Assembly: GCA_947311605.1 (NCBI GenBank)
Contig: CAMZLC010000022.1
Span: 1-45,818 of the forward strand
From: an uncultured Sulfurovum sp.
GTDB taxonomy: Bacteria; Campylobacterota; Campylobacteria; Campylobacterales; Sulfurovaceae
DNA: 45,818 nt
Direction: 5' to 3'
Shown here: positions 11,189-28,822 of the stretch, one piece after another
How the letters are laid out: each line of letters starts with the position of its first letter
Numbering within the stretch: the first letter of the stretch is position 1
Notes under the pieces: generated by a model
What the model saw: the letters and a program-made list of their open reading frames with translations, nothing else
Told to the model about the DNA's origin: nothing
Database searches by the model: none
Program-made: the position numbers and the translations under genes

Positions 11189-11834
11189 ATCTCAAACTTG
11201 GCTTCGTGCCCAGTTCTGGTCTCTGCCTGACGGTATCTTTGATGCTGAGTATTCTCGATATGGTTGATTTGGGGTCATTCATGTCACCAAATACCAAGGC
11301 ATCATATTTGCAGGCTTCCACACAGCCTGGCTGAAGTCCTTTTTTGAGTCTCGTCTCCAAACAGAAGTCACAATTTTCCGCCATATTGGTCTCTTCGTTG
11401 ATAAACCTGACATCATAAGGACAAGCCACGATACAGTAGGCACACCCGATACAGTCATCCCCGTTCATAGTAACGACATCCAGCAGCGAGTCCTTGTGGC
11501 ATGCAGCCGTAGGACATACAGCTACACACGGTGCCTCTTCGCACTGCTGACAGGAGACTCTGACAAATCTCCTCGCCTTTACATTGTCTGGATCTGTTCT
11601 GTCCTGAATGATCATTCTGTTTTGTGCTGCCGGCACCAGATTGACGCTATGGCAGGCACTTTCACATTCTGCGCAGCCCACACACTTGGTCTGATCGTAG
11701 ATCATAGACAGGTGCTGCTTGGGCTCGACACGCCTCTTCTCTTCGGAGGATAGCGCATATCCACCTGTGGCAAGTGCCATAGAACCTATTCCTAGACTTT
11801 TCAGAAATCCTCTTCTTTCTTTACTGCTACTCAT
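11160..11834 (-). CDS. mccC: 4Fe-4S ferredoxin-type electron transfer subunit, MccC/NrfC-like
   Basis: Several Cys clusters (CVGCAECESAC, CQQCEEAPCVAVCP, CIGCAYCIVACP); Tat-like N-terminus RRGFLKSLG. Confidence 0.87.
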   Translation of the reverse strand: MSSSKERRGFLKSLGIGSMALATGGYALSSEEKRRVEPKQHLSMIYDQTKCVGCAECESACHSVNLVPAAQNRMIIQDRTDPDNVKARRFVRVSCQQCEEAPCVAVCPTAACHKDSLLDVVTMNGDDCIGCAYCIVACPYDVRFINEETNMAENCDFCLETRLKKGLQPGCVEACKYDALVFGDMNDPKSTISRILSIKDTVRQRPELGTKPSLRYVPAVKQGV

Positions 11835-11879
11835 ACTCTTCCTCCACTACAACAGCTATTACTCATCCAGAAACAGTGC

Positions 11880-12662
11880 CTATTTCTTCAGGCTCTGAGG
11901 CTTGGTCTTGTTGCTGTCTATTTTTACATCCGCCTTCTGATGCGCCATTTTTTTAAACTCGCCAGGCGACATCACCTTCAACAATTCCACCTCAAAAATC
12001 ACAACGGCATTTGGCGGGATATCTGCCACACCGTCCTCTTTGTATGCGAGCTCTGATGGAATCACCAGTTTGTATTTTGATCCCTCTTTCATCAGCAAAA
12101 GCCCCTCTTTGAGACCATCTATGATATTGATCATCGAGAGGTGTGCCGGCGCTTTTCTTTTGTAGGTATCGTCAAATACCGTACCGTCTATGAGTTTTGC
12201 CTGATAGTTCAGCATGACGATGCTCTCTGCCTGGACACTGCCTCCACTTCCCTCTTTGAGTACCTCATACTGGAGTCCTGATTTTGTTGTCTTGACCCCT
12301 TTTTTTATCCTATGCTCTGCAAGATATTTTTTGCCTGCCTCCAGCGTCTCTTTCTTCAGCTTCTCTAGCTTGGCTTTTTGAAGCTTATTGAGATTGTCGG
12401 CTCTGAGGTTCAGGTAGGATATGGTTTCGTTGTCGTCCATAGTAGATTTGCCCCTCAAGGCATCACCAAATCCCTGTATCAGCCTGTCAATATCTGTCTT
12501 GACGCCTAATTTATCTTGCCTGATGACCTGGTTGAGTATATGACTACCTGTAGTAACCCCGATAGCATACGACTCCTGTTTGAGATCAGCCTTTAGTCCT
12601 GCGGCATACCCATTTGCACCAAGTGATAGAATAAAAAAAGAGCTCAAAATACACTTTTTCAT
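11880..12662 (-). CDS. mccB: FKBP-type peptidyl-prolyl cis-trans isomerase, MccB-like
   Basis: FKBP core (VMLNYQAKLIDGTVFDDTY...KYKLVIPSELAYKEDGVADIPPNAVVIFEVELL); N-terminal Mip/FkpA dimerisation region; adjacent to mccA. Confidence 0.87.
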   Translation of the reverse strand: MKKCILSSFFILSLGANGYAAGLKADLKQESYAIGVTTGSHILNQVIRQDKLGVKTDIDRLIQGFGDALRGKSTMDDNETISYLNLRADNLNKLQKAKLEKLKKETLEAGKKYLAEHRIKKGVKTTKSGLQYEVLKEGSGGSVQAESIVMLNYQAKLIDGTVFDDTYKRKAPAHLSMINIIDGLKEGLLLMKEGSKYKLVIPSELAYKEDGVADIPPNAVVIFEVELLKVMSPGEFKKMAHQKADVKIDSNKTKPQSLKK

Positions 12663-12746
12663 CAATGAATCCTTATTGTTTGATGCAGAACCATACATTG
12701 TGTATGATCCTGCGTTGATAGATAACGCTGTATGACCGGTTATCTG

Positions 12747-14891
12747 TTAGTCCGCTGCATGCTTCTGCAGAATATCTCCAGCCATATCTACATAAGACTT
12801 GGCTGCTTCCAATTTTCTCTTGGTAAACTTAAATCCGTGCATACCCCATGAACCGTCTTTCTTGACAAGATCCAGTGTGGCTTGGGCTTTCTCGGTCAGC
12901 TCGTTGATTCTAGCTCTGTCGGCAACCTGAAGCTCTGTAGTCTCGAGAAGTGCATAGATGCCCTTAATCGCTACATTGACCTCTTTGTAGAGTGCCTTCA
13001 CAGGTTTTTGCCATCCCATGACTTCGTCATAGACTCTCTGCTGATCTTCAAAGTGAAGCGTCTTCTTGAGTTTTGACTGAGCCACACTGTGACAGCCTTG
13101 ATTCTCTTCTAGGTCTCTATCTGCCCAAGAGGTTTTTCCACATGCCCACATCAAGTCGATGAAGTTGTGTCCCTTCTCATCTTTGGCTACATACCAGTTC
13201 TTGTATTTTTTAGGTACCTGCTGCTCTCTTGCTGCACCTGGAGGCGGGTTAAGCGTTTTCTTCTTGGGATCGACCAGAATCTTCCAGATATGTGATCTTC
13301 TCTGGGTATCAAATCCTCCATGATCTTGGTATTGTGCCGCATACCAATTTTCACAACTCATAATATAAGGCATATGACACGCCTGACAATTCACTTTGGA
13401 GTGTGTATCTTTTGTATTGTTGGCAATATAGGCTGCCTCTTTATGACAAGATGCACAATTTTTTCTAATAGCTGGTTTCGTATAGAATGTACTTAGATAG
13501 TCACCTGTATCTTGATATACACCACCTTTTGTAATATGGTTCACACCATTTTTCTTCTCATTGTAGTGCGCATAGCCAGTGACATCGTGAGGATCATGAC
13601 ACGTTGTACATCTCATACCTGCATCATAGTGTGCTGTGAAGTATGACTGCGAACCTTCGGTACCACAACCAGGACCCGCTGATTTAAATTTGGAAGTAAG
13701 ACCGAGCTCGGCTGCTTTTCTTCTAAGATCTGGATTTTTAGATTTTCTAAACTTCTCCGCCAAGAATGGTCTGAAGCTAAATCTCTGGTGACATCTCTCA
13801 CAGTTGGATGTCAGTAGACCTTTGCCGCCCTCTAGGTGTCCGCCTGCTCCGTGACACTCTTCACAAGAGATACCCTTGGAGACCGTATGGTCATGTAGTA
13901 CCTTTGGATTGCCCAGTGCGCTATAGAACTCTTCTTTGGTTTTAAAATCAAACTTGAAGGGGTGACAAACTTGACAATAAGATGAAGATGCTTGAACCTG
14001 CATAGATTTTTTGTATCTGGCAGCATAAGAAGCTAGACCTCGTACATAACCACTATTGTCACCATACTCCTCAAGCGTAACAGGGAAGTTGGGAACATAT
14101 TTTCGAATCTTTTTTGCCATTGCGGGTGTCAGGTCGTTTGCCCAGGTTCTCTGAAACTGATTTGAGCCTGCCACTACCGTACCTGTTCCATCATCAAGCG
14201 TACCATCTACGATGTGGTAAGTACCACGAAGAAGGTATTTATCAAAGTATCCCAACTTCGTTCTGAGATGTCCTACAGTACAATAGATGCTTTCAGGATT
14301 AAGTCCCTTAGGAAGTATAGAAGCGGTGTTTGTGCCAAATACAGATGATTTGAGATCATTGCCTACCTCTGGATGCTCTCCTGGGAATCTAATTGTTGAT
14401 GAGTGTCGTGATCTGCTCCACTTTTCATACTGTGCAGCATGACACTCACCACATTTCTTTGGTCCTATGAACTTATTTGGGAAGATTAGTGTATCTTGCG
14501 CAGGAAGACGATACATAGTTGATGTCAACCCTTTTCTCTTGCTGTACTTTTGAAATTCATTTCCATTACCAGCATGGAGCATCTCATGTCCACGATCTCC
14601 TGTAACTAACTTACCTACAACTTTTCCCTTTGGTAAATAGGTTGTGAAGATAGGGTGATGTTTGAATATCCAATCATATCTCTCTTTCTCTGTTACAATA
14701 GAGTCTTGCAGAGAATACACACCTCTGGACTCCATCGTTCCCTTCGGGTCAGCAATCACCTCAAGCGCGTCCTTGCTCATAGTGATCATGCCAGGAACTG
14801 GGCTCTTTGTCTCTCCTGAAGCCATCAGGCTCGTTACAGAAGAGAGACTAAGCAACAATGCCATACAGGCGGTTCGTTTCCATGTCTTCAT
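12747..14891 (-). CDS. mccA: Octaheme c sulfite reductase MccA
   Basis: Seven CXXCH (CGECH, CQVCH, CEECH, CERCH, CTTCH, CASCH, CQACH) plus CGKTSWADRDLEENQGCH, a CX15CH motif diagnostic for MccA; RBS GGAGACAAA before the ATG at 14891. Confidence 0.95.
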   Translation of the reverse strand: MKTWKRTACMALLLSLSSVTSLMASGETKSPVPGMITMSKDALEVIADPKGTMESRGVYSLQDSIVTEKERYDWIFKHHPIFTTYLPKGKVVGKLVTGDRGHEMLHAGNGNEFQKYSKRKGLTSTMYRLPAQDTLIFPNKFIGPKKCGECHAAQYEKWSRSRHSSTIRFPGEHPEVGNDLKSSVFGTNTASILPKGLNPESIYCTVGHLRTKLGYFDKYLLRGTYHIVDGTLDDGTGTVVAGSNQFQRTWANDLTPAMAKKIRKYVPNFPVTLEEYGDNSGYVRGLASYAARYKKSMQVQASSSYCQVCHPFKFDFKTKEEFYSALGNPKVLHDHTVSKGISCEECHGAGGHLEGGKGLLTSNCERCHQRFSFRPFLAEKFRKSKNPDLRRKAAELGLTSKFKSAGPGCGTEGSQSYFTAHYDAGMRCTTCHDPHDVTGYAHYNEKKNGVNHITKGGVYQDTGDYLSTFYTKPAIRKNCASCHKEAAYIANNTKDTHSKVNCQACHMPYIMSCENWYAAQYQDHGGFDTQRRSHIWKILVDPKKKTLNPPPGAAREQQVPKKYKNWYVAKDEKGHNFIDLMWACGKTSWADRDLEENQGCHSVAQSKLKKTLHFEDQQRVYDEVMGWQKPVKALYKEVNVAIKGIYALLETTELQVADRARINELTEKAQATLDLVKKDGSWGMHGFKFTKRKLEAAKSYVDMAGDILQKHAAD

Positions 14892-14968
14892 TTTGTCTCC
14901 TTTTTTTTGATGCGGCAAGCACGAAAGATCCCAAGACATAAGATCTCCGAAAACCCCACCTACATGCA

Positions 14969-15003
14969 ATTCTAGCATCTAAGAGGGGGGGAATAGGGGG
15001 GGG
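14969..15003 (-). promoter_or_regulatory. mccA promoter: C8-TATT-C7 tracts, 10 bp, then -10 TAGAAT
   Basis: Minus strand CCCCCCCCTATTCCCCCCCTCTTAGATGCTAGAAT, about 75 nt upstream of the ATG. Confidence 0.6.
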
Positions 15004-15040
15004 AAGTGCATAGGGCAGGAAAAAAGATCTCTGAGCAATG

Positions 15041-16306
15041 TTATTTTTTTAAAAATCCAAATCTGTCTATGCCCTCTCTGGAAGTCTCTCTGACATAATC
15101 CATCCCGATATAAAACTCCTTCATCAGGATCAGGAAGATATATTTCCCAAAGGTTGTCAACTGATAGTTTTTGTCCGTAATTTTGAACAATTTCAATAAA
15201 AATAGCTCTATAGCCAACTTCTTTTTTGCATGTGCACCATACCTGTCGGCAAGATTCTCCACGGAGAACCCAAACCCAAACATATCTACCATCAGTCGAT
15301 AGCTAAGTATCTCTTTAGGGGAATAGCTTTTGTGTCTAGCGGTAGAGAATTGGTTGCTGTCCACTCTCTGCTTGTATTCATCCAGCGCAAAGGTGTTAAT
15401 ATACAGGGTACCGTCAATGAAGCCAAAGGCCCCAGAGCCCAGACCCAGATACTCCACATGGTCCACCACATACTCATCGATCAGCGTGATACCTTTTTTG
15501 GAAAATGCCCAGCAGCTGTTCTGCACATAATCGCTGCCGAGCTCATCTAAAATCACCTTATACAGTGCATACTCTTTTTTGTTCTGCACTGCTCCCATAT
15601 TTGTCTCTATCTCTTTTCTGACAGACGGAGAATACATGAGGGGATACATGGATATCTGCTGAGGAGAAAGTGCCTTGAGTTTTTGGATATCCTCTCTCAG
15701 CTCTTCTGCGGTCTGGTCAGGAAAGTTAAATATAAGATCGCAGTTGACTATTTTGAAATTGGCTATAAGTTTTTTGATGTTCTCCACCTGCTCATCTGCC
15801 GTACCAAACTTGTTGCACCTCTTGGTCTGCTCGAGTCTTTTGTCGTCTAGAGATTGTATGCCCACGGAGAGCCTATCCACCCTCTCTTTGAGTAGGTCTA
15901 TCAGCGCATCACTGATATCGGGGTCAGCCTCACAGGAGAGCTCATCAATATCAAAAAGTTCACGAACCAAGTCAATAGTGCTGGCCAGCTCATCCGGCAG
16001 GATCGTAGGCGTACCTCCTCCTATATACACAGAGGAGAAACGAAATCCTCTCTCCTTGGCTATGCGTATCTCTTTTCGCAGTGTAGCGAAGTACTCTCTG
16101 GCTTTTTTTTCATCAAAATTGTATTTGTGAAAAGAGCAGTAAGGACAGAAAACTTTGCAAAAGGGGATATGGAGATAGAGCAGATAGCTCTTTGTGGGGT
16201 CTGGCTGAGGATATTTCCTTTCATCAGTATATTGGAGGTTGAGATTTTTGTCTATTTTGTATCGGGCGTATCTCTCTATAGTATTTACCACTAGTTGCTT
16301 TATCAA
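15041..16306 (-). CDS. HemW/HemN-like radical SAM protein
   Basis: YLLYLHIPFCKVFCPYCSFHKY motif, IGGGTPTILP, LSVGIQSLDD; TTG start at 16306 preceded by AAAAGG. The longer ORF start at 16459 runs through a structured leader. Confidence 0.85.
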   Translation of the reverse strand: MIKQLVVNTIERYARYKIDKNLNLQYTDERKYPQPDPTKSYLLYLHIPFCKVFCPYCSFHKYNFDEKKAREYFATLRKEIRIAKERGFRFSSVYIGGGTPTILPDELASTIDLVRELFDIDELSCEADPDISDALIDLLKERVDRLSVGIQSLDDKRLEQTKRCNKFGTADEQVENIKKLIANFKIVNCDLIFNFPDQTAEELREDIQKLKALSPQQISMYPLMYSPSVRKEIETNMGAVQNKKEYALYKVILDELGSDYVQNSCWAFSKKGITLIDEYVVDHVEYLGLGSGAFGFIDGTLYINTFALDEYKQRVDSNQFSTARHKSYSPKEILSYRLMVDMFGFGFSVENLADRYGAHAKKKLAIELFLLKLFKITDKNYQLTTFGKYIFLILMKEFYIGMDYVRETSREGIDRFGFLKK

Positions 16307-16340
16307 TCGAATACCTTTTAAAATTGTTTTAGGAACCCAT

Positions 16341-16445
16341 GAGGGGAAGAGTGTGCTGGTATTATTCCCCAGAGTGGGGCGGGCTTGGCAGCACACAAAG
16401 CGACTCTTTTCCCTCGTGTCTCTATCGGCGACCGGCAAGGTCGCC
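16341..16445 (-). other. Structured leader/intergenic RNA between hydC and the HemW-like gene
   Basis: Minus strand GGCGACC-TTGCC-GGTCGCC hairpin followed by nested arms GAGGGAAAAGAG...GTGTGCTG...CCCCA-CTC-TGGGG...CAGCACAC-TCTTCCCCTC. Confidence 0.5.
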
Positions 16446-16459
16446 AAAATTATACCCAC

Positions 16460-17167
16460 CTAATGCTTTTTATGCCATTTCATACCAGAAAAAATCGCAT
16501 CCATCGATCCGTTCTTTCCAAATACAGCATTGAATATCGCCATATAGATATGTATCACAACCACAATAATTACCACCCACATGGCTATGTGATGTATCTG
16601 TCTGACATTGGCCATGCCGCCCATCAGCACCTCAAAAAACCTCATCGGCTCATACAGAAGAGCACCTAGACCCTCATGATATACATGCACATAGAGTACA
16701 AGACCGGTGACAATGAGGGCAAAAAATGTCACATACAGACCTGCGTACGCCATGGTCTGCAGGGGGTTATATACACCTTTTAGATGGGGGTGCTTCCCCA
16801 TAAATAGATAATATTTGATTTGGGCTATCCAAACTTTTGGCTTGAGGGTATCTCCTAGTGAGGCTCTTTCGTGCTTGTAGGCTCTGCCCACAAGCGTCAG
16901 ATAGACCTTGAGTATCACCACGCCTATCATCACGAATCCGAAGATAATATGCCATGATCTCATCAGGGCATAGAGGAAATTATTTGGCTCAGAGCTTACA
17001 GCGGGCGCCACAAAGGGATAGGCGATATAAAACCCTGTAAATGTGAGTATCAAAATAGCCACTGCACGAATCCAATGCTGCCACCTATACGCGGGCGTAA
17101 ACTCCATCTCTTCAGTGATCTCAGCAGGGTATCCCTCTGCTGTATCTGTGTGTTGTTCTGTTTTCAT
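16460..17167 (-). CDS. hydC: Ni/Fe-hydrogenase b-type cytochrome subunit
   Basis: HydC-like cytochrome b with His-containing TMs; start MKTEQHTDT preceded by AAGGAGCTGCCG; follows hydAB. Confidence 0.88.
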   Translation of the reverse strand: MKTEQHTDTAEGYPAEITEEMEFTPAYRWQHWIRAVAILILTFTGFYIAYPFVAPAVSSEPNNFLYALMRSWHIIFGFVMIGVVILKVYLTLVGRAYKHERASLGDTLKPKVWIAQIKYYLFMGKHPHLKGVYNPLQTMAYAGLYVTFFALIVTGLVLYVHVYHEGLGALLYEPMRFFEVLMGGMANVRQIHHIAMWVVIIVVVIHIYMAIFNAVFGKNGSMDAIFSGMKWHKKH

Positions 17168-17177
17168 CGGCAGCTCC

Positions 17178-18914
17178 TTATGTATTGCAAACGCCACCAT
17201 AGAGTGGGTCCACCTTATATCTGCCAAGCTCATTGCCTTTGGTGTCCATCACATGCACTGCACAAGCAATACAGGGATCGTAGGAGTGTATCACCCTGAT
17301 GATCTCCAGAGGCTGAGAGAGATCGGCTATCTTCAGTCCTACCAGATCTGCCTCGTAGGGACCTTGCGTACCTACAGCATCTTTAGGGCCTGCATTCCAG
17401 GTGGATGGTACTGTCGCCTGATAGTTTTCGCACACACCATTCTTGATACGAATCCAATGAATCAGCATACCCCTTGGCACATCACCTATGCCTCTGCCTT
17501 TGTACTCTTTGCTGTTGTCAATCGTATAGGTCGCGCATGTTTCCTTGTCAACTTTAGTATTCTCCACCAAAGAGTCAAAAGCCTCCAGCGCATAGTCCAC
17601 TACGATGCCAGCCTGAAGTGCGCGCGCAGCAGTTCTCCCCAGCGTACTGAAAAGTGCCTTGAGAGGAAGTCCTGTCTCCTTGAGAAATCCATCCACTCTC
17701 TCCTTGATGACCTTGTTGTTCCTGGCGTACCCCACAAGCAGACAGGCGAGAGGACCGACCTCCATAGGCTTTCCGTCATATCTGGGGGACTTGATCCAAG
17801 TATATTTTCCTTCTGGGTTAATATTTTTAGAGTGTATCATCTTTCCGTCCGGACCTACACTCTCAGAATTGACAAGTCCTGTGTACTCAGGCACTGTTGT
17901 GCCGTCATAAGGGTGCTGGGGCTCATTGTCTGCATACCATGAATGGGTAGCCTCTTCGGTAATGAGATCTTCATTGATATCAAACACTTCAGAGATACTT
18001 CCGTCCACAATATAACCACTTTCGAACAGATACTTATCGCGACTGACTTTGAAGTCTCTGTATGACATGAAGTTTTTGACACCCATTGGCTTCATCACGG
18101 ATGGCTCGTCCCGATACATCTCCGCTGCCATTTTGATATCCGCCAAATAGGCATTATGTACAAACTCTTGCATCTTTTTGAATTTGACCATATATTCACC
18201 CATTCTGGCTGGATCCAGTACATCCATGACACAGCTGACTCCTCCCACGACCAGGGATTGGGGGTGGGGGTTTTTGCCGCCAAAGATAGCCATCATCTGC
18301 GCCGCCAATCTCTGCATCTCAAGAGCCTTGAGATAGTGAGAGAGGGCTATGAGGTTCTGCTCTGGTGTGAATCTATAGGTCTTGTGGCCCCAGTATGCGT
18401 TGGCAAAGGGCCCGAGTCCTTGTGGATTCTTCGCAAATTTTGCGACAGTCTGCTGTACCTTAATGAGCTCATTTTCTCCTGTACCAATAGGGTTCTTGCA
18501 ATAGTTAAATGCAAGCTTGCTGGCTACTGCGGGGTCAGCCTTGAGTGCAGAGGTAATATCTACCCAGTCCACACCATGCAGGTGATAGAAATGCACCACA
18601 TGGTCATGCAGAAACAGCGCAGCATTCATCAAAGTTCTCACCAGTTCAGCGTTGTAGGGTATCGTGATGCCGAGTGCATCCTCTACCGCCATGGTACTCT
18701 TGAGGTAGTGAGAATAGGTACACACGCCACAGATCCTCTGCATCAACAGAGGCACATTTCTAGGATCTCTCCCTTTGGCGATCACCTCCAGCCCTCTCCA
18801 TAAGGTAGAGGAGACATACGCCTCTTCTACCACACCATCATCACCCACCACTACCTCTGCTCTGAGGTGTCCTTCTATTCTTGTGATTGGATCTACTACT
18901 ACTCTTTTTGACAT
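17178..18914 (-). CDS. hydB: [NiFe] hydrogenase large subunit
   Basis: L1 RICGVCTYSH and L2 DPCIACAVH motifs. Confidence 0.96.
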   Translation of the reverse strand: MSKRVVVDPITRIEGHLRAEVVVGDDGVVEEAYVSSTLWRGLEVIAKGRDPRNVPLLMQRICGVCTYSHYLKSTMAVEDALGITIPYNAELVRTLMNAALFLHDHVVHFYHLHGVDWVDITSALKADPAVASKLAFNYCKNPIGTGENELIKVQQTVAKFAKNPQGLGPFANAYWGHKTYRFTPEQNLIALSHYLKALEMQRLAAQMMAIFGGKNPHPQSLVVGGVSCVMDVLDPARMGEYMVKFKKMQEFVHNAYLADIKMAAEMYRDEPSVMKPMGVKNFMSYRDFKVSRDKYLFESGYIVDGSISEVFDINEDLITEEATHSWYADNEPQHPYDGTTVPEYTGLVNSESVGPDGKMIHSKNINPEGKYTWIKSPRYDGKPMEVGPLACLLVGYARNNKVIKERVDGFLKETGLPLKALFSTLGRTAARALQAGIVVDYALEAFDSLVENTKVDKETCATYTIDNSKEYKGRGIGDVPRGMLIHWIRIKNGVCENYQATVPSTWNAGPKDAVGTQGPYEADLVGLKIADLSQPLEIIRVIHSYDPCIACAVHVMDTKGNELGRYKVDPLYGGVCNT

Positions 18915-18928
18915 ATCCTACTCTCCTT

Positions 18929-20092
18929 CTATACTTTTGGTGGTTTGATTGCTGCCACCGCTGCGTGTGCTGCCACACCTACACCTACGGCCGCCAGTAT
19001 ACCTACACCGATTTTGTCCGCGGTCGCATCAGCTCCTAATCCACCAAAAACCGTATTGTATAATCGATCCCTGAGCGGCTCATTGACTGTTCCCATTGTG
19101 TCCCAAAAGTTTGGCTCAGAACAACCAATACACCCAAAACCAGTCTGCACGGGCCAGGATGTGCCCTGGTTGAATTTCTGCTTAGCACAGTTATTGAAAG
19201 TGTATGGCCCCTTACAGCCTACCTTATAGAGGCAGAATCCATCCTTGGCGGCATTGTCGCCGAACTTCTCGACAAATTCTCCGGCATCAAAATGCCCTCT
19301 TCTCTCACACAGATCATGGATCCTCAGCCTATATGCCCACTTGGGTCTATTGTATGCATCTAGCGCAGGCAGGGTGCCGTATAGTAAATAGTGCAGCAAG
19401 GTGCCTACAATATTTTTCTCACTAGGAGGGCATCCTGGTACATTGATCACTGTTTTGTCTGTCACTTCACTCAATGCTACAGCACCTGTTGGGTTGGGTG
19501 CAGCAGCCTGCACTCCACCAAATGCCGAACAGGTACCTATAGCAAAAATAGCTGCTGCATTTTCGGAGGTCTCCTCTGCTATAGCTCTGCCACTTTTTCC
19601 ATGCCCGCCTATCGTCAGGAAACTTTCCATCTCTCCCGAAGGGATGCCCCCCTCCACCATGAGAATGTATCTGCCCTTATACCTCTCGATAGCATGCTCA
19701 AGATTCTCTTCTGCCTGCCAACCGGCAGCCGACATAATCGTCTCCTGGTACTCTAAGGAAATGTAGTCAAATATAAGGCTGTCTATCGAAGGATTTGCTG
19801 ATCGAAGTAGTGACTCCGTACAGCCTGTACATTCTGCCATATGCAGCCATATGATAGGTAGCCTATCTGCCACCTTGACTGCTTCAGCCATTAGCGGGCT
19901 AAAGGTGGCCGGTAGCGCCAACATAGCCGTCACCGCACTGACCCACTTCATAAAATCTCTTCTAGAGAAGCCTGCCTCCTCGATAGTCTCTTCTATGCTC
20001 TTATCTCTGCCCTCCATTGGAGGCAGTTTTTTGAGCCCTTCTACTCTCTGCCGGAACGCCTGATGAAGCGAATCATAGGTAGTCTTTTCCAT
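18929..20092 (-). CDS. hydA: [NiFe] hydrogenase small subunit (Tat-exported)
   Basis: RRDFMKW Tat motif, ECTGCTES, GTCSAFGGVQAA, VPGCPPSEKN, GCIGCSEPNFWD; start at 20092 is preceded by AAAGGA, and the -10 at 20135 makes the longer start unlikely. Confidence 0.95.
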   Translation of the reverse strand: MEKTTYDSLHQAFRQRVEGLKKLPPMEGRDKSIEETIEEAGFSRRDFMKWVSAVTAMLALPATFSPLMAEAVKVADRLPIIWLHMAECTGCTESLLRSANPSIDSLIFDYISLEYQETIMSAAGWQAEENLEHAIERYKGRYILMVEGGIPSGEMESFLTIGGHGKSGRAIAEETSENAAAIFAIGTCSAFGGVQAAAPNPTGAVALSEVTDKTVINVPGCPPSEKNIVGTLLHYLLYGTLPALDAYNRPKWAYRLRIHDLCERRGHFDAGEFVEKFGDNAAKDGFCLYKVGCKGPYTFNNCAKQKFNQGTSWPVQTGFGCIGCSEPNFWDTMGTVNEPLRDRLYNTVFGGLGADATADKIGVGILAAVGVGVAAHAAVAAIKPPKV

Positions 20093-20134
20093 ATATTCCA
20101 TCCTTTTTGATATATACTTAAACGCCATGCCACA

Positions 20135-20167
20135 ATTATACCACAGAAAGGGGGAGGAAGAGGGGGG
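20135..20167 (-). promoter_or_regulatory. hydABC promoter: C6-TCTTCCT-C5 tracts, 9 bp, then -10 TATAAT
   Basis: Minus strand CCCCCCTCTTCCTCCCCCTTTCTGTGGTATAAT. Confidence 0.6.
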
Positions 20168-20208
20168 AAGAAGAGAAAAATGAATAAAAATTCAGAAACT
20201 TGTACTGC

Positions 20209-20241
20209 GCAACAGAGCAGATCTCTTTTCTGCCCTATTGC
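20209..20241 (-). terminator. 13-bp stem-loop downstream of the molybdoenzyme operon (possible terminator or 3' end structure)
   Basis: Minus strand GCAATAGGGCAGA-AAAGAGA-TCTGCTCTGTTGC (two G:U pairs); no strong U-tract follows. Confidence 0.4.
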
Positions 20242-20263
20242 CAAAGAGGCATAGGATGGGGAT

Positions 20264-20971
20264 CTAGTCCGTATCTTCTTTTATTTTTTCCTCTTTTTTG
20301 AGCTTGTCATAGTAAATGCCATGATGGTCCTTTATAAACTCCTCGTCCATCTTGCCTGTTTTAAACATGGCACTGTAAGAGTTTTTGTTGGTCGGATGTG
20401 TGGCCAAATAGACATGTATCATCAGTAAAAAGCTCAAAAATATAAACGCTATCGCATGTGCTCCCCTGGCTAGTGCCGCTGTCTCTACACTGAAAGCATC
20501 CCTAAAGATCAGCATATACCCAGAGACTGTCAATACAATCATGAAGATCACCACGCCCTGAGCAAAAAACTTCTGACCAGCATTCATCTTGCCAAACCTC
20601 ACATGCTCTTGGTTGATGTAAAACTTCCACATCTCTTTGAACCCATCTATGGTTGCCTTGACCCCCCATTTGTCAGGCCACATGCTGAGCTTTGTAAATT
20701 TTCTCAACATCATAACGCTAAACGGAATCGCCATCATTGTCAACAAAAATGCACTACTATAGTGTATGAATCTCATCAGTGACATACCCGCAGAAAGTAT
20801 GTCACCATTGCCAGTCAGCGCGGCCATAGGGATGCCTGCACCATAGGCGATAAAGTCAAACTTGTGAGAAAGCACAGGCAAACCCGAGATGAACATAAAG
20901 GCAACGAAGTGCACCAAATGGCTGTGAAACCACCGCTCCATATTGCTGTAAACTGTTATTTTTTTAGACAT
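20264..20971 (-). CDS. b-type cytochrome membrane subunit (FdhC/PhsC-like)
   Basis: WFHSHLVHF, FIHYSS, RGAHAIAF and IHVYLATH histidines in TMs; operon partner of ferredoxin and molybdoenzyme subunits. Confidence 0.82.
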   Translation of the reverse strand: MSKKITVYSNMERWFHSHLVHFVAFMFISGLPVLSHKFDFIAYGAGIPMAALTGNGDILSAGMSLMRFIHYSSAFLLTMMAIPFSVMMLRKFTKLSMWPDKWGVKATIDGFKEMWKFYINQEHVRFGKMNAGQKFFAQGVVIFMIVLTVSGYMLIFRDAFSVETAALARGAHAIAFIFLSFLLMIHVYLATHPTNKNSYSAMFKTGKMDEEFIKDHHGIYYDKLKKEEKIKEDTD

Positions 20972-21767
20972 TTTTTTGCTCCTCCTGCATGATTTTCTCT
21001 TTTCTTTTTCCGAGCCAATAAATCAGATGGCCTACTGAGCCTACTGCAATAGCTGCAGCACCTACGACACCAGCAGATTTGGCGACTTCTCTAAACTGCA
21101 TCGCTGGTCTCGACGGAGCGGTATCGAGCTGATAGGCCTCAAGATCCTCTTTGGGGATGATGGTGACCCAATGGAGTGTGCCTACATAGTTGTTCACCTT
21201 GTCTGCACCATATACGACATGCTCCTTGCCTGTCGTTTGGGTATAGAGTGCCGCTCTTTTGTTCGCCTCCTTTAACACCTCTTCCTTGGCACCGGAGAAC
21301 ATAGCATCAGTCGGGCACACATTGACGCAACTTGGCTTGAGACCATTCTCTATCCTGTCATAACAGCCATGGCACTTATATGCCTTGCCATCTGTGACCA
21401 CAGGCACATCAAAAGGACAGGCATCCACACACGAGCTGCATCCGATACATGGATCCTGGCTGATCACCACCTCTCCACCTGTTCTACGCGTAATAGCATT
21501 GACTGGGCAGATATCTAGACAGGGAGCCTTTTCGCAATGGTTGCAGTGATGAAACGCAGTGACCTGTCTGGCGTCGGGAAAGACTCCAAGCTCTCTTCTT
21601 TTTGGTGTCAGGTGTGATTGGTGACCTAGCTTGCTCTGTACACTCTTCTCCATACCTATTCTCTCGTCTCTCTGTAGCCGTAGCCTGTTCTCTGCAGAAC
21701 ACCCAACCATACATGCAAAGCATCGTATGCATGGTGTGGTGTCGTAGCATTTCATATTGACACTCAT
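20964..21767 (-). CDS. 4Fe-4S ferredoxin subunit (PsrB/FdhB-like)
   Basis: CIRCFACMVGC, CNHCEKAPCLDICP, CIGCSSCVDACP, CHGCYDRI clusters. Confidence 0.9.
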   Translation of the reverse strand: MSVNMKCYDTTPCIRCFACMVGCSAENRLRLQRDERIGMEKSVQSKLGHQSHLTPKRRELGVFPDARQVTAFHHCNHCEKAPCLDICPVNAITRRTGGEVVISQDPCIGCSSCVDACPFDVPVVTDGKAYKCHGCYDRIENGLKPSCVNVCPTDAMFSGAKEEVLKEANKRAALYTQTTGKEHVVYGADKVNNYVGTLHWVTIIPKEDLEAYQLDTAPSRPAMQFREVAKSAGVVGAAAIAVGSVGHLIYWLGKRKEKIMQEEQKNV

Positions 21768-24307
21768 GATATCCTCCTTATTTTTACAGTACAGTCTTGG
21801 ACAGGATTGCCTGCAGTGAGCGGGCTGAAGAGAAACTCTGTCAGGTGATTGGGATTAAATCCGCCTCTCTCTTGGTTTCTTAAGTGCGCACTGTAGTTAT
21901 CCAGGGCACCCGCTGTCACACCATAGTAGGCAAAAAGCGTATTCTGCTGTACTGTTTCGCTAAGCTTTACTTTGGCAACCGATACGATTTTTGGTAGTCT
22001 TGGGTTGAATATCTCCACCTTGTCTCCATCCTTAAGCCCCAAACTCTCGCCCTTGGCTCTGTTGATAAAGACATGATCTGCATGATGCTCCTCTAGGATG
22101 CTTTTGAGCAGCAAATTGTTTTTGGTTTGCTGTCCCGTAAATGTACCCAAGGGATGAAATCCTGTAATAGGCAGGAATTCGTTATTGGCCAACTCTTTAT
22201 TGCCCTTGAGCACAAAGGGTCCTACAAAGAGGGGCAGAGGATTGATATATTCTGCCCCCTTGTTCCCTGTATCCTTGAGTGCTCTGTATTTTTTGACCAA
22301 GGCCGTAGGATAGATCTCCCACTTTCCTGTTTTTGTTTTACACTTGATTTTATAGTGTTTCTCTCCAGCCCAGACCCTGCCATCCAGTACCTCCTGGAGT
22401 GACGGAAGCGATGCCTGCTCTTTGGCAGTGATGCCGTGTATTCCGGCATACTGTTTTTCCCAAAAAGTGATCATGCCCCTTTTTTCATATTCACCAAAAT
22501 ACTCTTCATGCTCTTCCGGGGTCAGGATTCTCCTTGCAAGCTCATTGAGTATCCAGTAGCCATCCTTGGATTCGCCAAGTGGCTCAACAGCTTTTCTATT
22601 GACACCCAGTGTGGCCAGAGGGCTTTTCCATTTGCCATTGAGACACTCATCCCTCTCCATGAATGTCGCATCCGGCAACACGACATCGGCGTACATCACT
22701 GTCTCGTTCCAGTGTGGACTTACACACACCATCATCTCAAGTCGCTGGAGTGCCTTGGCTATCTCTGTTGAGCCAGTCGAGCCTCCTATGATATTCTGTC
22801 CCCAGAAAAAGCCCACCCTCTGCTTGTATGGTTTTTGTGTAAGTACAGCCTCTACCCATGCTCTTCTGTAAAACTTTACATTGATGAGGGGCTTGTTCTC
22901 GTCGTATTTTGCCATCCATTTTGCTATATTTGGCTCTTTGACTTTAGGTACCTTGATCGCTTTGCCAAGTTTTACTTTGCCGTTTTGGATCACGCCGCCT
23001 TTTTTGCCATAAACCCCCAGGATCGCATTGATCTGAGTAATCAGAAGCTTCTCTCTGAGAGAGTTGGCGTATCTTTCGCTTCTGTAGCCCCTTTCTATGA
23101 AACATGCAGGTTTTGCATCGTTGAGCTTCTTGGCGATCTTTTTGATCTGCGCTTCCTCTAATGTGCTTACCTCGGCTGCCCATGTTGCTGTATATTTTTT
23201 ATTGGCATCCACCATCGTCTGCAGGGCAGTCTTGCATTGGATGCTGCTACCGTCATCAAGTGATACGCTGTATGCCCCGAGCAGCTTTGTCTCACCCTGT
23301 TCTTCTGATTTAAATCCGATGCCTGAAGCGGTAGCTATCAGATAGTCCTCTAGCTCTTTGCCTTTTTTCATGATGGCCTGCGTTTTGACGGGCAAGCCTG
23401 TATCTGGATGGATAAGCATATCGGCATTAGTTTTGCTGCGCAAATGCTTTTCATCATAGTACTTGTTGGTCAGTATCTCATTGAGAAGCCCCAACAGAAA
23501 TGCCTCATCGGTACCAGGCTTTATGGGTGCCCAGTCCACCAGGCTCTCACCCGCCTCGGATGGTTTTCTAGGATCGACCACAACGATCTCCATGCCATTT
23601 TTTTTGCCCAGACCAAAGGTCTTGCCCCAGGGGTGGCATACCAGTGCACCACCGACATTTCGCTGTATCAACACCCCATATTTGGCAAACTCATGATCAG
23701 TACTTACCGCAGAGGTGCCTGGACCTGAGACCGCTGAGAGCTTCGTGCCCCCCATGACTGCGCCATAACCCACCGGCAGTGATGAGCCAAAACAGGTATC
23801 CCCATAGCCAACAATGTTCGGCGTACCATAGAGATGGAAAAATCCTTTGTCCACACCACCCGCTGCACTAAACCTAGGCAGATAGGCTACCGATTTGGCA
23901 TCCCCTTCCTCTCTGATCTTTTTCAGCTTGTACGCCACCATATCCAGTGCCTCTGACCAGGTAGCCTTCCGGAAGATACCTTCTCCCCTGCGACCTGTAC
24001 GAATCAGTGGCGTTGTGATTCTGTCCGGATCATACAGCGCTCCCATAGCGCCAGCTGCTCTGCCGCAGACAGCACCATAGGGTGTTCCCATATTGGGCTC
24101 CAGTCTTGCCACTCTTCCCTCAAGTACCGTAGCTACTGCGGGACACTTCTGTGCGCACATACGGCACAGCACGGAAACCTTTTTCTCTAGTGCAAAATCA
24201 GCAGATGTGACCGTTTTGGCCTCTGCTGTATTTGGTATGCCCAGTGCTGTCCCTGCTGCGGTAGCCACACCTCCTTTCAAAAATTCTCTTCTAGTCGTCT
24301 TGCCCAT
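21764..24307 (-). CDS. Molybdopterin oxidoreductase catalytic subunit, PsrA/PhsA-like
   Basis: Tat motif RREFLKGG, N-terminal CRMCAQKCP...C cluster, YGDTCFGSSLP candidate Mo-Cys ligand; start at 24307 preceded by AAAGGATG. Confidence 0.88.
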   Translation of the reverse strand: MGKTTRREFLKGGVATAAGTALGIPNTAEAKTVTSADFALEKKVSVLCRMCAQKCPAVATVLEGRVARLEPNMGTPYGAVCGRAAGAMGALYDPDRITTPLIRTGRRGEGIFRKATWSEALDMVAYKLKKIREEGDAKSVAYLPRFSAAGGVDKGFFHLYGTPNIVGYGDTCFGSSLPVGYGAVMGGTKLSAVSGPGTSAVSTDHEFAKYGVLIQRNVGGALVCHPWGKTFGLGKKNGMEIVVVDPRKPSEAGESLVDWAPIKPGTDEAFLLGLLNEILTNKYYDEKHLRSKTNADMLIHPDTGLPVKTQAIMKKGKELEDYLIATASGIGFKSEEQGETKLLGAYSVSLDDGSSIQCKTALQTMVDANKKYTATWAAEVSTLEEAQIKKIAKKLNDAKPACFIERGYRSERYANSLREKLLITQINAILGVYGKKGGVIQNGKVKLGKAIKVPKVKEPNIAKWMAKYDENKPLINVKFYRRAWVEAVLTQKPYKQRVGFFWGQNIIGGSTGSTEIAKALQRLEMMVCVSPHWNETVMYADVVLPDATFMERDECLNGKWKSPLATLGVNRKAVEPLGESKDGYWILNELARRILTPEEHEEYFGEYEKRGMITFWEKQYAGIHGITAKEQASLPSLQEVLDGRVWAGEKHYKIKCKTKTGKWEIYPTALVKKYRALKDTGNKGAEYINPLPLFVGPFVLKGNKELANNEFLPITGFHPLGTFTGQQTKNNLLLKSILEEHHADHVFINRAKGESLGLKDGDKVEIFNPRLPKIVSVAKVKLSETVQQNTLFAYYGVTAGALDNYSAHLRNQERGGFNPNHLTEFLFSPLTAGNPVQDCTVKIRRIS

Positions 24308-24425
24308 TAAACATCCTTTTTCCCATACATTTTCCAAAACCGACAAGGGAAAAAGCACATCTTCGGAGGCTTTCATCCCAATTGGTCAACATCCTTATTT
24401 TGTCTAGATAACAAAACGGAAACAT

Positions 24426-24455
24426 ATTATAAGAAGAAATAAGGGGAGAAGAGGG
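24426..24455 (-). promoter_or_regulatory. Molybdoenzyme operon promoter: C3-TCTTCT-C4, 11 bp, then -10 TATAAT
   Basis: Minus strand CCCTCTTCTCCCCTTATTTCTTCTTATAAT. Confidence 0.5.
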
Positions 24456-24505
24456 TCTAAAAATGAATGACCATTCAGGTTTAGGGGAGCCGCTGTATTG
24501 TCATA

Positions 24506-24973
24506 CTACTGCTGCTTGCCTATAGGTATGCTTGGATATCCAAGCGTGTCGAGAGATGACTCTGAGCTCTTTTTGAGGAAGTTTTTATCTATCGAGACAT
24601 GACACTCTATACACCTGTTCAATACTTTATGCTCCCTTATAGGGATATGGCTGACCTTGGTAATGTCGTGGCATTGCCAGCAATCACTTCCACATTCTGT
24701 ATGGGCCGTATTGGCGGATATATTATTTTCGTCATATTTGACAAGTCTTATGTTGGAACGGTTGAGCTCCGAAACAGTGTTATCTATGATCTCTATCCTG
24801 GTACGATCTTGATGACACACCTTGCATCTGCCTAGCACCTGATGATCCGCATCCATTTTCCCATCTTTTTTGATGAGTTTTGGATGACAAAGGATGCAGT
24901 CTCCGCTGCAGCCCAGTGCGCAGGCAGAAAACATCATTAGGGTGAGAACAGTAGCCGCAATTCCCTGTATCAT
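24506..24973 (-). CDS. Tetraheme c-type cytochrome
   Basis: Four CXXCH (CILCH, CKVCH, CWQCH, CIECH) and signal peptide. Confidence 0.85.
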   Translation of the reverse strand: MIQGIAATVLTLMMFSACALGCSGDCILCHPKLIKKDGKMDADHQVLGRCKVCHQDRTRIEIIDNTVSELNRSNIRLVKYDENNISANTAHTECGSDCWQCHDITKVSHIPIREHKVLNRCIECHVSIDKNFLKKSSESSLDTLGYPSIPIGKQQ

Positions 24974-24988
24974 ACAGTAATCCTTCTA

Positions 24989-25642
24989 TCACATTTCTTT
25001 GAGTTTCGAGAGGTACTCCGCTACTGCTTCTATCTCTTCCTCTCCTAAATATTTTACTTGCGCTTGCATCACCCTTCCCTCTCCGTACTTGTCTCTTTGT
25101 CCCTCTTTGTAGGCTTGGATGAGTTTAATAAGTGACTTTTTTGTTTTTTTTGCAATCTTACCTGAGACCCCGAGTGCCGCAATATTGCCATACTGGCCAT
25201 GACAGCTGATGCATTGCTGGAATACGACAGAACCGTCAATCGTTGGTTTCTTTTGATGCACTACCTGTTTGTGGATTTTTTTTGGATTTTTTCCCTCCTT
25301 GGATATCTTTTTGCGTACCTCGACCTTGGATGCAAAAATAACCTCCCTGAATTCCCTCTTCAGTAGTTTGCTCTTGTAGTTTCTCATATAGGTAGAGATG
25401 TCATGCATAATCACATCACCCTTGGAGACCTTTATGGGCACTGGTACATCCATGATACCGACCCATATATCATGCCCTCTTTCGTTGACTTTGACATATT
25501 TGAATCCGGGAACTGCTACTACCTCCAGTACCGAGCCTTGCAACATTGGGGTGCCGATGGTACTATTTTGATCCGCGATGCCCTGTGCCGCGCAGACGAT
25601 GCCACTCAGTATAAGTGCTATGATGAGATATTTCAATTTCAT
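24989..25642 (-). CDS. Monoheme cytochrome c with NrfJ-like N-terminal domain
   Basis: CISCHGQYG plus class-I-like C-terminus; N-terminal GSVLEVVAVPGFKYVKV...YMRNYKSKLLKREFREVIFAS. Confidence 0.75.
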   Translation of the reverse strand: MKLKYLIIALILSGIVCAAQGIADQNSTIGTPMLQGSVLEVVAVPGFKYVKVNERGHDIWVGIMDVPVPIKVSKGDVIMHDISTYMRNYKSKLLKREFREVIFASKVEVRKKISKEGKNPKKIHKQVVHQKKPTIDGSVVFQQCISCHGQYGNIAALGVSGKIAKKTKKSLIKLIQAYKEGQRDKYGEGRVMQAQVKYLGEEEIEAVAEYLSKLKEM

Positions 25643-25672
25643 GTTACTTCCTCATGCAATAAATTTTGATTG

Positions 25673-25705
25673 ATTATAGTAGAAAAAAGGGGATGAAGGG
25701 GGGGG
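25673..25705 (-). promoter_or_regulatory. Cytochrome operon promoter: C8-TTCAT(C)-C4 tracts, 10 bp, then -10 TATAAT
   Basis: Minus strand CCCCCCCCTTCATCCCCTTTTTTCTACTATAAT. Confidence 0.6.
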
Positions 25706-25759
25706 ATGACAATCAGCCTGGCCCTTTCATTCACCCACTAAGCTCTGAGGTGCAGCAGA

Positions 25760-27199
25760 TTATTGCTTGGTATCAAAAACGAGAATAAAGCGCACTCCTC
25801 CTTCAATAGAGTGTATCTCTATGGCTCCTCCGTACCTCTTTTCAATAATCAATTTGACCATATGCAACCCTATCCCTGTTCCGACACTAGGATGCTTGGT
25901 AGTAAAGTAAGGATCAAATATCTTCCCCTTGATGCTTTCATCAATGCCGCCTGCATGATCCTCTATCTCTAGTATCTTTTTCCCATCTCTTATGTATGCT
26001 TTGATGGCAACCCTTCGGTCACTAATATCGTTTTCCACAAAAGCATCTTTGGCATTATTGAGTAGATTGATGATGACCTGGATGAGATCGTTTCTTGACC
26101 CATGCACCACATAGTCATTTTGTATACCAATCTCAATCTCTATACTGTTTTTCTCTATGGTAGATGAGATGATGCGGCATGCATGTTCTATGGCCTGAGA
26201 TATGCTGAAGCTGTCTTTTTGCTCCTGCGGTTTATAGAACTCTCGAAAATCATCTATGGTGTGAGACATGAAGGTGATCTGCTTTTGGACCTCTGCTACT
26301 TTCTCCTCTACTGTCTCCTGAGTCAACTTTCCCCTCTTCCCTCTGAGCTCCATGTTGACCAAAGCAGAGGATATCTGTGCCAATGGCTGCCTCCACTGAT
26401 GTGCAATGTTGCTTATCATCTCTCCCATGGAGGCAAGTTTGTTCTGATTCTCCAAGAGGATCTCTCTCTTGGACTGAATCAATAGCTCCTGCTTATAAAA
26501 GAGGTACGCCATAAAGATAAATATCATAAAAGTAAACAGCATTGCCAAGCCGCCTACCTCAAACTCTCTGATATGGTAGTCCACGATATCAGAGACAGGT
26601 GCCTTAAGTGATATGAAGGCTCTAGTGTCCCCCACCTTTTCATAAAAGCCATTAATATAGCCGTACCGCCTAATCATTGCCAGGGGAGCATAGGCAGGAT
26701 CTCCATGACACTCCATGCAGGAGGGTTTGTTTTTTCCTATGGGCAGAGCCATATAAAAGTACTGCGTGCCATTCTCCTCTATAATTTCGAAATGCTCTTT
26801 TATCTTGCCAGATTGAAACTCTTTTAGGATCTTTGATTCAAATGGATCTGCCTGATTGTCTGGATTTGTCGGGTTATTGGATGCCAACCTATATGTATAG
26901 GAGAGCTTTGCGTCCTTAAGCAAAATATCATATGTATTTTTGACAATATAGGAAGATGAGAAGATTTTAGGGTCAAAAAAATCCATGGCTAGCCTTCCCT
27001 CCGCTTTGAGCTGATAAATCAACGGCCTCTGCACACTCTCTATGTAGTTTCTTAATGCCTTGGTAGTGTTGAGTATGGATATTGCCTCTTGTTTCGTATC
27101 ATGTATGGCTAGATTTTTATAGAAATTATAGAACAGAAAAGCGATCACTGCATAGAGCAGGACAAAGAAGAGAACCACCACCTTGAAGCTATATTTCAA
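25760..27199 (-). CDS. Sensor histidine kinase with periplasmic heme-c-type (DUF3365/Tll0287-like) sensor domain
   Basis: Periplasmic CMECHGDPA; HisKA NIAHQWRQPL; HATPase NLLNNAKDA, GTGIGLHMVK. Confidence 0.9.
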   Translation of the reverse strand: MKYSFKVVVLFFVLLYAVIAFLFYNFYKNLAIHDTKQEAISILNTTKALRNYIESVQRPLIYQLKAEGRLAMDFFDPKIFSSSYIVKNTYDILLKDAKLSYTYRLASNNPTNPDNQADPFESKILKEFQSGKIKEHFEIIEENGTQYFYMALPIGKNKPSCMECHGDPAYAPLAMIRRYGYINGFYEKVGDTRAFISLKAPVSDIVDYHIREFEVGGLAMLFTFMIFIFMAYLFYKQELLIQSKREILLENQNKLASMGEMISNIAHQWRQPLAQISSALVNMELRGKRGKLTQETVEEKVAEVQKQITFMSHTIDDFREFYKPQEQKDSFSISQAIEHACRIISSTIEKNSIEIEIGIQNDYVVHGSRNDLIQVIINLLNNAKDAFVENDISDRRVAIKAYIRDGKKILEIEDHAGGIDESIKGKIFDPYFTTKHPSVGTGIGLHMVKLIIEKRYGGAIEIHSIEGGVRFILVFDTKQ

Positions 27200-27881
27200 G
27201 AGTATACCCCACGCCGTAGATATTTTTGATGAGCCTCTTCCCTATCTTTTTTCTCAATTCCTTGACAACAGACTTTACGGCCTCTTTGCTGGGGTCTTCA
27301 GACTCCCATATATAGTCATAGAGATCATCAAAGGTGACAATTTGGTTTTTTCTCTCAATGAGATACTCTAAAAATCTGGCTTCGTTTTTAGTGAGCCTTA
27401 TCTTGCTCTCTTTATGATACAGCGATTTTGAGGAAAAGTCATAAGTATATTCCGGGGAGATATCTACAGACGTCTGATAGCCTATCAGATCCAGGGATAC
27501 TTTCTCGAGAGCATTCACAAAAGAGTCTGTTGTGTAGGGCTTAGGGAGATATTTGACGATCTTCAGCTCAACTGCTCGCCACAGATACTCCTGTTCCGTA
27601 AAAGCGGAAAGTATGATGATGGGGATTTTATGGTCGGTCTCTCGAATCTGCCTGATCGCTTCGAGGCCATCCATGTTGGGCATACAGATATCCAACATAA
27701 GCACATCATAGCAGTTGTAAGTGAACTCATCCAGAGCCTCTTGTCCATCGGTCACATGCACCACTTTGTCAAAAAAAAGCTCTAATATTTCTATCGTATT
27801 TTTTGCTACTTCGATCTCATCTTCAGCGTAAAGTATCTTTTTGGTACTTAGTATATCGAGCGAATCTGAGTTGGTTTTCAT
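27189..27881 (-). CDS. OmpR/PhoB-family response regulator
   Basis: Receiver DVLMLDICMPNMDG, PIIILSAF, KPY; C-terminal winged helix. Confidence 0.93.
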   Translation of the reverse strand: MKTNSDSLDILSTKKILYAEDEIEVAKNTIEILELFFDKVVHVTDGQEALDEFTYNCYDVLMLDICMPNMDGLEAIRQIRETDHKIPIIILSAFTEQEYLWRAVELKIVKYLPKPYTTDSFVNALEKVSLDLIGYQTSVDISPEYTYDFSSKSLYHKESKIRLTKNEARFLEYLIERKNQIVTFDDLYDYIWESEDPSKEAVKSVVKELRKKIGKRLIKNIYGVGYTLEI

Positions 27882-28382
27882 CTATTTTTTCAATGTTGCT
27901 ATTTTGTAGATAATAAAAGCAAAGAGCAGCAGAATAAAAATGCTCAATACAACAGGAACTGACTTGGTAACAACATACAGCACAATCAGTATAGACAACA
28001 GGGTAGGAACTTCATTGTAGGCCCTAAAAAACTGACCGCTTTTTGTACATGCTCCCGACTCCAGTTTTTTCCTAAAATGTTCCATACTAAATGAGTACAC
28101 CGTGAGAAGGGCTAGGAGAAAAAGCTTGAGTATCATCCACCCATTACCAAGTAGTGACGGATTGAGATAGAGGAGGAGACCACCACTAATGATGCTTGCC
28201 CACATGGCAGGCAGACCTATGTATTTGTACAGTTTGTATTCTTGTATTTTTACAACCTCCACAAACTCTTCTTTTTCGCTATGCTCCTGATGATGCACAT
28301 AGAGTCTAGGCAGGTAAAAAAGCACCGCCATCCAAGACAAAATTGAGATCACATGAAACGACAAGAAATATAAATATTCCAT
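27882..28382 (-). CDS. hemJ: HemJ-type protoporphyrinogen oxidase / UPF0093 membrane protein
   Basis: SFHVISILSWMAVLFYLPRLYVHH, FFRAYNEVPTLLSILIVLYVV; four-TM pattern. Confidence 0.87.
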   Translation of the reverse strand: MEYLYFLSFHVISILSWMAVLFYLPRLYVHHQEHSEKEEFVEVVKIQEYKLYKYIGLPAMWASIISGGLLLYLNPSLLGNGWMILKLFLLALLTVYSFSMEHFRKKLESGACTKSGQFFRAYNEVPTLLSILIVLYVVTKSVPVVLSIFILLLFAFIIYKIATLKK

Positions 28383-28406
28383 ATTTCACTCCTTCAGGTT
28401 TACTGT

Positions 28407-28438
28407 ACAATACCAAAATATAAAGGGGAAAAAGGGGG
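28407..28438 (-). promoter_or_regulatory. hemJ/two-component operon promoter: C5-TTTTT-C4, 12 bp, then -10 TATTGT
   Basis: Minus strand CCCCCTTTTTCCCCTTTATATTTTGGTATTGT. Confidence 0.5.
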
Positions 28439-28502
28439 AATATTTGGAAACTACCGCTCCGAAGATGCCCCTTTGCTCTTTTTCCCTTTTTTTCTATATT
28501 GT

Positions 28503-28557
28503 CCCGAACCATACATTAGAATCGCCTCATATTCTGCAAAGGCTTAGTGCATAGTTT
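28503..28557 (+). repeat. Short (~60 bp) REP-like palindromic unit of the same family, in tandem with copy 2
   Basis: CCGAACCATACATTAGAATCGCCTCATATTCTGCAAAGGCTTAGTGCATAGTTT; shares the left-arm sequence of copy 2 and has its own closing arm TTAGTGCATAGTTT. Confidence 0.75.
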
Positions 28558-28563
28558 AGAATT

Positions 28564-28729
28564 ATCCCAAATTATGCATTAGAATCGCCTAATATTCTGC
28601 AAAGGCTTAGCGCATGGGTGTTTGCAAAGTATCGAAGGTTCACCCGTAGGTGAATCGATGATACTTTGTGAATGCCCATGTGCTAATGCTTTGTAGAAGA
28701 TGGGTGATCTCTAGTGCATAGTTTGGGAT
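28564..28729 (+). repeat. Long palindromic (hairpin) repeat, copy 2, full length
   Basis: TCCCAAATTATGCATTAGA...GTTCACC-CGTA-GGTGAAT...CTAGTGCATAGTTTGGGA; about 80-nt complementary arms with a 4-nt loop. Confidence 0.9.
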
Positions 28730-28822
28730 TATACTCATATTCTATTTATACACGGCTATTGAGCATATTGTTAGACTGAGAAGGGTACAATATCACAAAA
28801 ATACATTATAGGAGGAGAGAGA

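Follow-up and report, generated by a model that had tools for sequence, protein, structure and literature searches.

In the pho box, the operator of PhoB, direct repeats of ~11 bp replace the -35 element and end ~10 bp before the -10 box. The mcc cluster of Wolinella succinogenes is reportedly linked to a two-component system. A 2019 review names, in the part of its text considered here, no two-component regulator for MccA (PMC6682613). The OmpR-type regulator PceP of Sulfurospirillum binds direct repeats (consensus CTATW-N17-CTATW) that overlap the -35 region and is taken as an activator, and its kinase PceS, a protein with seven transmembrane helices, is presumed to be a tetrachloroethene sensor (PMC7755780). 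The sCache_heme domain (DUF3365/Tll0287) was recently reported to bind heme c and, in fusions with signalling modules, to behave like an NO sensor (PMC12889525, preprint). Neither a C-tract binding site, nor a hydrogenase/PhsA-like/hemJ regulon, nor a described MccR-type site was found in the open literature searched, most subscription journals lying outside this search.

The DNA analysed here (the window) is contig C22, a stretch of 45,818 nucleotides from an uncultured Sulfurovum sp. with relatives among the Campylobacterales. Its minus strand carries five transcription units, running from 28438 down to ~10175, and five promoters (14969-28438), each of which consists of two C-tracts, a gap of 9-12 bp and a -10 box (Table 1). 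All five elements named in the original prediction were found as quoted, in both tract lengths and -10 boxes; the tract centres, which had been placed about 10-12 bp apart, are spaced slightly more widely (9.5-12.5 bp). A promoter scan for -35/-10 matches detected no TTGACA-like -35 element paired with any of the five -10 boxes, in agreement with the proposal that the tracts stand in its place, and the lack of a C-tract site upstream of ung, nuo and miaA, as described with the original prediction, was also borne out. The NosL genes, which had been assigned to the plus strand, lie on the minus strand (458-1060, a weak match, and 3774-5033).

Table 1. Genes and promoter boxes of the putative regulon in the window
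Feature	Position	Strand	Basis
mccA, FKBP isomerase, FeS protein and NrfD-type protein	10175..14978	minus	Partners by Pfam
Radical SAM gene after the hydrogenase genes	15041-16459	minus	
Uptake-type [NiFe]-hydrogenase small, large and cytochrome b subunits	16460..20128	minus	TIGR00391 hydA 518 bits, above cut-off
PhsA-like molybdoenzyme, 4Fe-4S subunit and cytochrome b subunit	20264..24376	minus	PhsA 258.8 bits, below cut-off of 694
Two c-type cytochromes	24506..25642 (24989-25642, 24506-24973)	minus	Pfam Cytochrom_C; Cytochrom_c3_2 and Cytochrome_C7 just under cut-off
Histidine kinase with periplasmic Tll0287-like heme-c sensor domain (SCxxCH; predicted)	25760..27199	minus	PF11845 113 bits
OmpR-type response regulator	27189..27881	minus	Response_reg (PF00072) 81.6 bits; Trans_reg_C (PF00486) 62.9 bits
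hemJ, protoporphyrinogen oxidase, first in the regulator operon	27882..28382	minus	TIGR00701 146.6 bits, above cut-off of 138.05
mccA box and -10 (TAGAAT)	15003-14969	minus	C8-TATT-C7-N10-TAGAAT; matrix 34.5; block conserved upstream of relatives' mccA
hydABC-type operon box and -10 (TATAAT)	20167-20135	minus	C6-N7-C5-N9-TATAAT; matrix 31.6
PhsA-like molybdoenzyme operon box and -10 (TATAAT)	24455-24426	minus	C3-N6-C4-N11-TATAAT; matrix 20.9
Cytochrome c operon box and -10 (TATAAT)	25705-25673	minus	C8-N5-C4-N10-TATAAT; matrix 20.0
hemJ-RR-HK operon box and -10 (TATTGT), putative autoregulation	28438-28407	minus	C5-N5-C4-N12-TATTGT; matrix 21.4

Systems in which an OmpR-type regulator acts from direct repeats in the -35 region are well known, and this one is of that kind; the box and the regulon were, to our knowledge, previously unannotated. 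It resembles PceP/PceS (TCS2) in its OmpR-family regulator, its phylum, its respiratory regulon, its direct repeats over -35 and its TANNAT -10 box. However, the PceP repeat is CTATW and that of the window is of the TTCCCCC type; the motifs do not match, and the window boxes do not contain CTATW repeats. PceP, which binds direct repeats overlapping -35, is thus an experimental precedent for the layout seen in the window, albeit one whose repeat sequence is unrelated. PhoB shares the winged-helix OmpR/PhoB-type architecture and the direct repeats at -35, but the pho box is built from CTGTCAT repeats of unrelated sequence and belongs to another sensor and another regulon. With W. succinogenes, the window has in common an mccA-type gene cluster. 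The window MccA matches the octaheme sulfite reductase of PDB 4rkm along almost all of its length (E = 6e-292, residues 26-740), and this homologue of a structurally solved copper-dependent enzyme is accompanied by an FKBP isomerase, an FeS protein and a protein of the NrfD type. NosL-like proteins, an ABC transporter and an FtsX-type permease, all encoded on the minus strand where the mcc region ends (458-5033), probably constitute a copper-delivery module for MccA.

The regulator was assigned to the OmpR/PhoB family by its receiver and DNA-binding domains, both of which score above cut-off. D64, the phospho-acceptor, and K114 are 100% conserved in 39 homologues, and the recognition-helix residues K199, E200, A201, K203, K207, R210 and K212 are invariant across the same set. 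The kinase combines a PF11845 match with a CXXCH motif in an extracytoplasmic N-terminal region, and C161, C164 and H165 are invariant in nine kinases. Because of this Tll0287-like domain with its invariant SCxxCH, the periplasmic part of the kinase, judged from its sequence, very probably senses through covalently bound heme c. The periplasmic Cache-type domain, the predicted covalent heme c, the CXXCH motif and the fusion to a histidine kinase are shared with sCache_heme kinases, whereas the tested examples of the latter are NO-sensor-like and the context in the window is sulfite and sulfur respiration.

Raw pattern counting gave an ambiguous picture. A loose form of the pattern matched five times (at four places) in the window versus 1.2 expected, but genome-wide the loose pattern, run with TANNNT as the -10 box, yielded 18 raw matches versus 20 in a reversed control. 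Counting was therefore dropped as proof of enrichment and replaced by a trained matrix and comparative tests. Genome-wide counts are pattern searches, and further sites may be missed in this assembly (1.69 Mb, 72% complete). We gathered 40 Campylobacterota loci carrying regulator homologues (51-65% identity) and trained a 33-column weight matrix solely on 27 C-tract sites from these relatives' loci, which had originally been picked with the same kind of pattern as that of the original prediction. When both strands of the window were scanned, the top five non-overlapping places were exactly the five promoters, although the molybdoenzyme, cytochrome and hemJ sites attained only modest scores (20-21). 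The score never reached 19.9 in 100 Markov resamples of the window, and its maximum was 13.1 in 178 kb (both strands) of unrelated OmpR-regulator loci.

A second, pattern-free test led to the same sites. Gibbs sampling of the sequences upstream of 16 non-redundant mccA genes converged on ATACTTCCCCCTTTTCCCCCCTTTTTT, and this motif ranks the five sites first in the window (the lowest-scoring of them reaches 11.9, and the next best place 10.0). A matrix built from ttr-type sites alone also puts the five first, and so does the full matrix when cut back to its first 20 columns, which excludes the -10 columns (the molybdoenzyme site then exceeds background only narrowly, 15.7 versus 13.5); the molybdoenzyme site is lost with the 22-column version of the ttr-only matrix. 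The tract centres of the linked motif lie at a mean of 10.4 bp. The five-box pattern is real and not a product of chance. In the rest of the genome, the only other convincing site precedes a tetrathionate-reductase-type operon on contig C130. Candidates on C111 (11.2), on C75 (10.6-11.9, within an open frame) and on C166 were rejected, the last of these despite a score of 21.5, as a coding-region chance match that lies within open frames and has no -10 box.

The longest ORFs that can be called mechanically for hydA and mccA begin inside or just past the -10 box; therefore, the true starts are probably downstream ATGs behind purine-rich RBS-type sequence (MKTWKRTAC for MccA and MEKTTYDSL for HydA). 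Upstream of the hemJ promoter, a repeat-like stretch (28500-28760) contains an imperfect inverted repeat around ATCGATTCACCTACGGGTGAACCTTCGAT, and the motifs AACTATGCACTA and CTAAGCCTTTGCAGAATAT recur there.

Comparison across the order ties the box to the regulator. An mccA homologue is present in 53 of 400 genomes. Where a close regulator is also encoded, the box was found in all 28 readable mccA promoters (scores of 25.0-43.2, window excluded), whereas none of the 16 mccA promoters from genomes lacking a close regulator has it, all of them scoring below zero; one of these 16 genomes comes from a genus in which all others with mccA encode a regulator and, wherever the promoter could be read, carry the box. 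In an alignment of eight mccA upstream regions, the box and its -10 form the sole clearly conserved block. A strict version of the motif occurs in 36 of 58 regulator-bearing genomes versus 29 of the 342 others (the Fisher value of 9e-19 ignores relatedness and is not a probability, because related genomes are not independent), and 34 of the 42 strict-motif sites in regulator-bearing genomes are within 7 kb of the regulator. At most regulator loci of other families, the box lies shortly past the kinase stop codon and heads the next operon. In relatives, the tracts of the box are short (C4-C5) and recur every 10-11 bp, with T-rich linkers and a steady distance to -10. The cultivable Sulfurospirillum cavolei is among the relatives that have the box. 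The link that had been drawn between the box, as a predicted binding site, and the local OmpR-type regulator is thus supported by comparative evidence: the same box adjoins orthologous and paralogous regulators in other families, its presence follows that of the regulator, and it heads sulfur-respiration operons.

Several further loci deserve mention. Two genomes (G150:C1:1020619-1021059 and G182:C1:2731730-2732215) have a partial regulator match (open frames of 162 and 171 aa) and an intact mccA box. In genus g53 of family f13, a CCCCCTCTTTGCCCTTTTTT site occurs in many genomes and no close regulator was found; this site is probably an unrelated element. The locus of the nearest regulator homologue (L054, 65%) has boxes ahead of two genes, a divergent pyrD and a metallophosphatase-like one, and mccA was not seen on the stretch examined.

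In relatives, the box heads mccA, ttrB-type operons and PhsA-like enzymes as well as genes for an exported rhodanese-like protein and a SoxA-like cytochrome. Both homologues of the PhsA-like enzyme found in the 14 genomes tested carry the box (28.5 and 21.3). On this comparative basis, the mccA, ttr-type and phsA-like operons form the conserved core of the putative regulon. None of 18 hydrogenase small-subunit loci in relatives has the hydA box, not even one from the same genus with 80% identity, and no same-strand site was found upstream of the regulator gene in 21 other regulator loci; hydrogen control and autoregulation were accordingly rejected as conserved features. Because the boxes at hydA and at the regulator's own promoter occur in this genome only, both look like lineage-specific additions to the core. 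Thus, of the autoregulated sulfite/hydrogen/sulfur regulon originally envisaged, the sulfur core is conserved, and the autoregulatory and hydA sites are confined to this genome.

Boxes unlinked to the regulator were also found in regulator-bearing genomes, before genes for a formate dehydrogenase, a chemoreceptor-like protein, a thioredoxin-like protein and a PhsA-like enzyme. In one genome (G213:C1:2174000-2179000, L212), a box scoring 39.0 and lying ~1.4 Mb from the regulator precedes a small gene with a TAT leader and a selenocysteine-type formate dehydrogenase operon, which places a second donor dehydrogenase behind the box. In two others (L213 and L214, in G172 and G223), the gene behind the box encodes a dCache-sensor protein similar to methyl-accepting chemoreceptors, a hint of taxis towards the signal to which the regulon would respond.

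The paired C-tracts are very likely direct-repeat activator sites of the OmpR-type regulator encoded in the window, which is predicted to activate sulfur-oxyanion respiration. The strongest competing explanation is that a paralogous regulator mainly binds or shares these boxes, so that the window would form a single branch within a network with cross-talk. Contig C130 encodes the closest paralog (57% identical to the window regulator), followed by a kinase and a ttr-type operon, and its box (CCCCCTACTTTCCCCCTCTTTCCCGCTATACT) is located 3 bp past the kinase stop, before an operon resembling ttrBCA. The near-identical motif of this promoter (matrix 36.3) and the invariant recognition-helix residues are in keeping with such sharing. 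However, each regulator adjoins its own targets, and many genomes encode just one of them. Moreover, mccA-linked and ttr-linked regulators fall mostly into separate clades, whose tracts differ slightly in spacing, and we consider it rather unlikely that the paralog is the main occupant or shares the sites. In the ttr-type branch, the kinases have a dCache domain instead of the Tll0287-like one.

Repression by the same regulator is less probable still. The boxes overlap the -35 region, where a bound protein can block polymerase, but PceP (PMC7755780) and, as is generally known, PhoB activate from this position. Furthermore, because no TTGACA-like -35 is paired with the -10 boxes, all five promoters would need an activator. 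It is very improbable that the C-tracts are homopolymeric slippage tracts of phase-variable promoters and no regulator site, since, although homopolymeric C/G tracts drive phase variation in Campylobacter and the C7-C8 tracts of the mccA and cytochrome promoters are long enough for slippage, the tracts of relatives are short and regularly arranged, and box presence follows regulator presence; slippage might act as a secondary effect on top of a regulator site.

Under the preferred reading of the tracts as activator sites, a sulfur oxyanion, or the redox state to which it brings the periplasm, would alter the heme-c sensor kinase, and the regulator would become phosphorylated. A regulator dimer would then occupy two consecutive turns of DNA, ~10-11 bp apart, at the usual position of -35 and, in a PhoB-like manner, bring sigma-70 RNA polymerase to the -10 box without a -35 contact. 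The targets switched on would be mccA, the PhsA-like sulfur-compound reductase and the cytochromes, to which this genome may have added the hydrogenase as an electron donor and the regulator's own hemJ-RR-HK operon. A broader scheme can be offered only tentatively, in which a periplasmic heme-c sensor kinase detects a sulfur oxyanion or the resulting redox state and, by way of one C-tract code read by several paralogous regulators across the Campylobacterales, controls sulfite, tetrathionate and thiosulfate/polysulfide respiration together with a lineage-specific donor dehydrogenase (hydrogenase here and formate dehydrogenase elsewhere). The scheme would include, in this genome, a feed-forward loop, since the sensor is transcribed together with hemJ, whose product serves the synthesis of the sensor's own cofactor.

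The box provides a sequence handle with which this regulon can be predicted in uncultured vent lineages, Campylobacter concisus and C. showae, and a heme-c sensor is pointed to as its input. Electron-donor enzymes, namely the hydrogenase in this genome and formate dehydrogenase elsewhere, appear to be wired into a regulon of electron-acceptor genes. These findings make the control of sulfite respiration in Campylobacterales directly testable.
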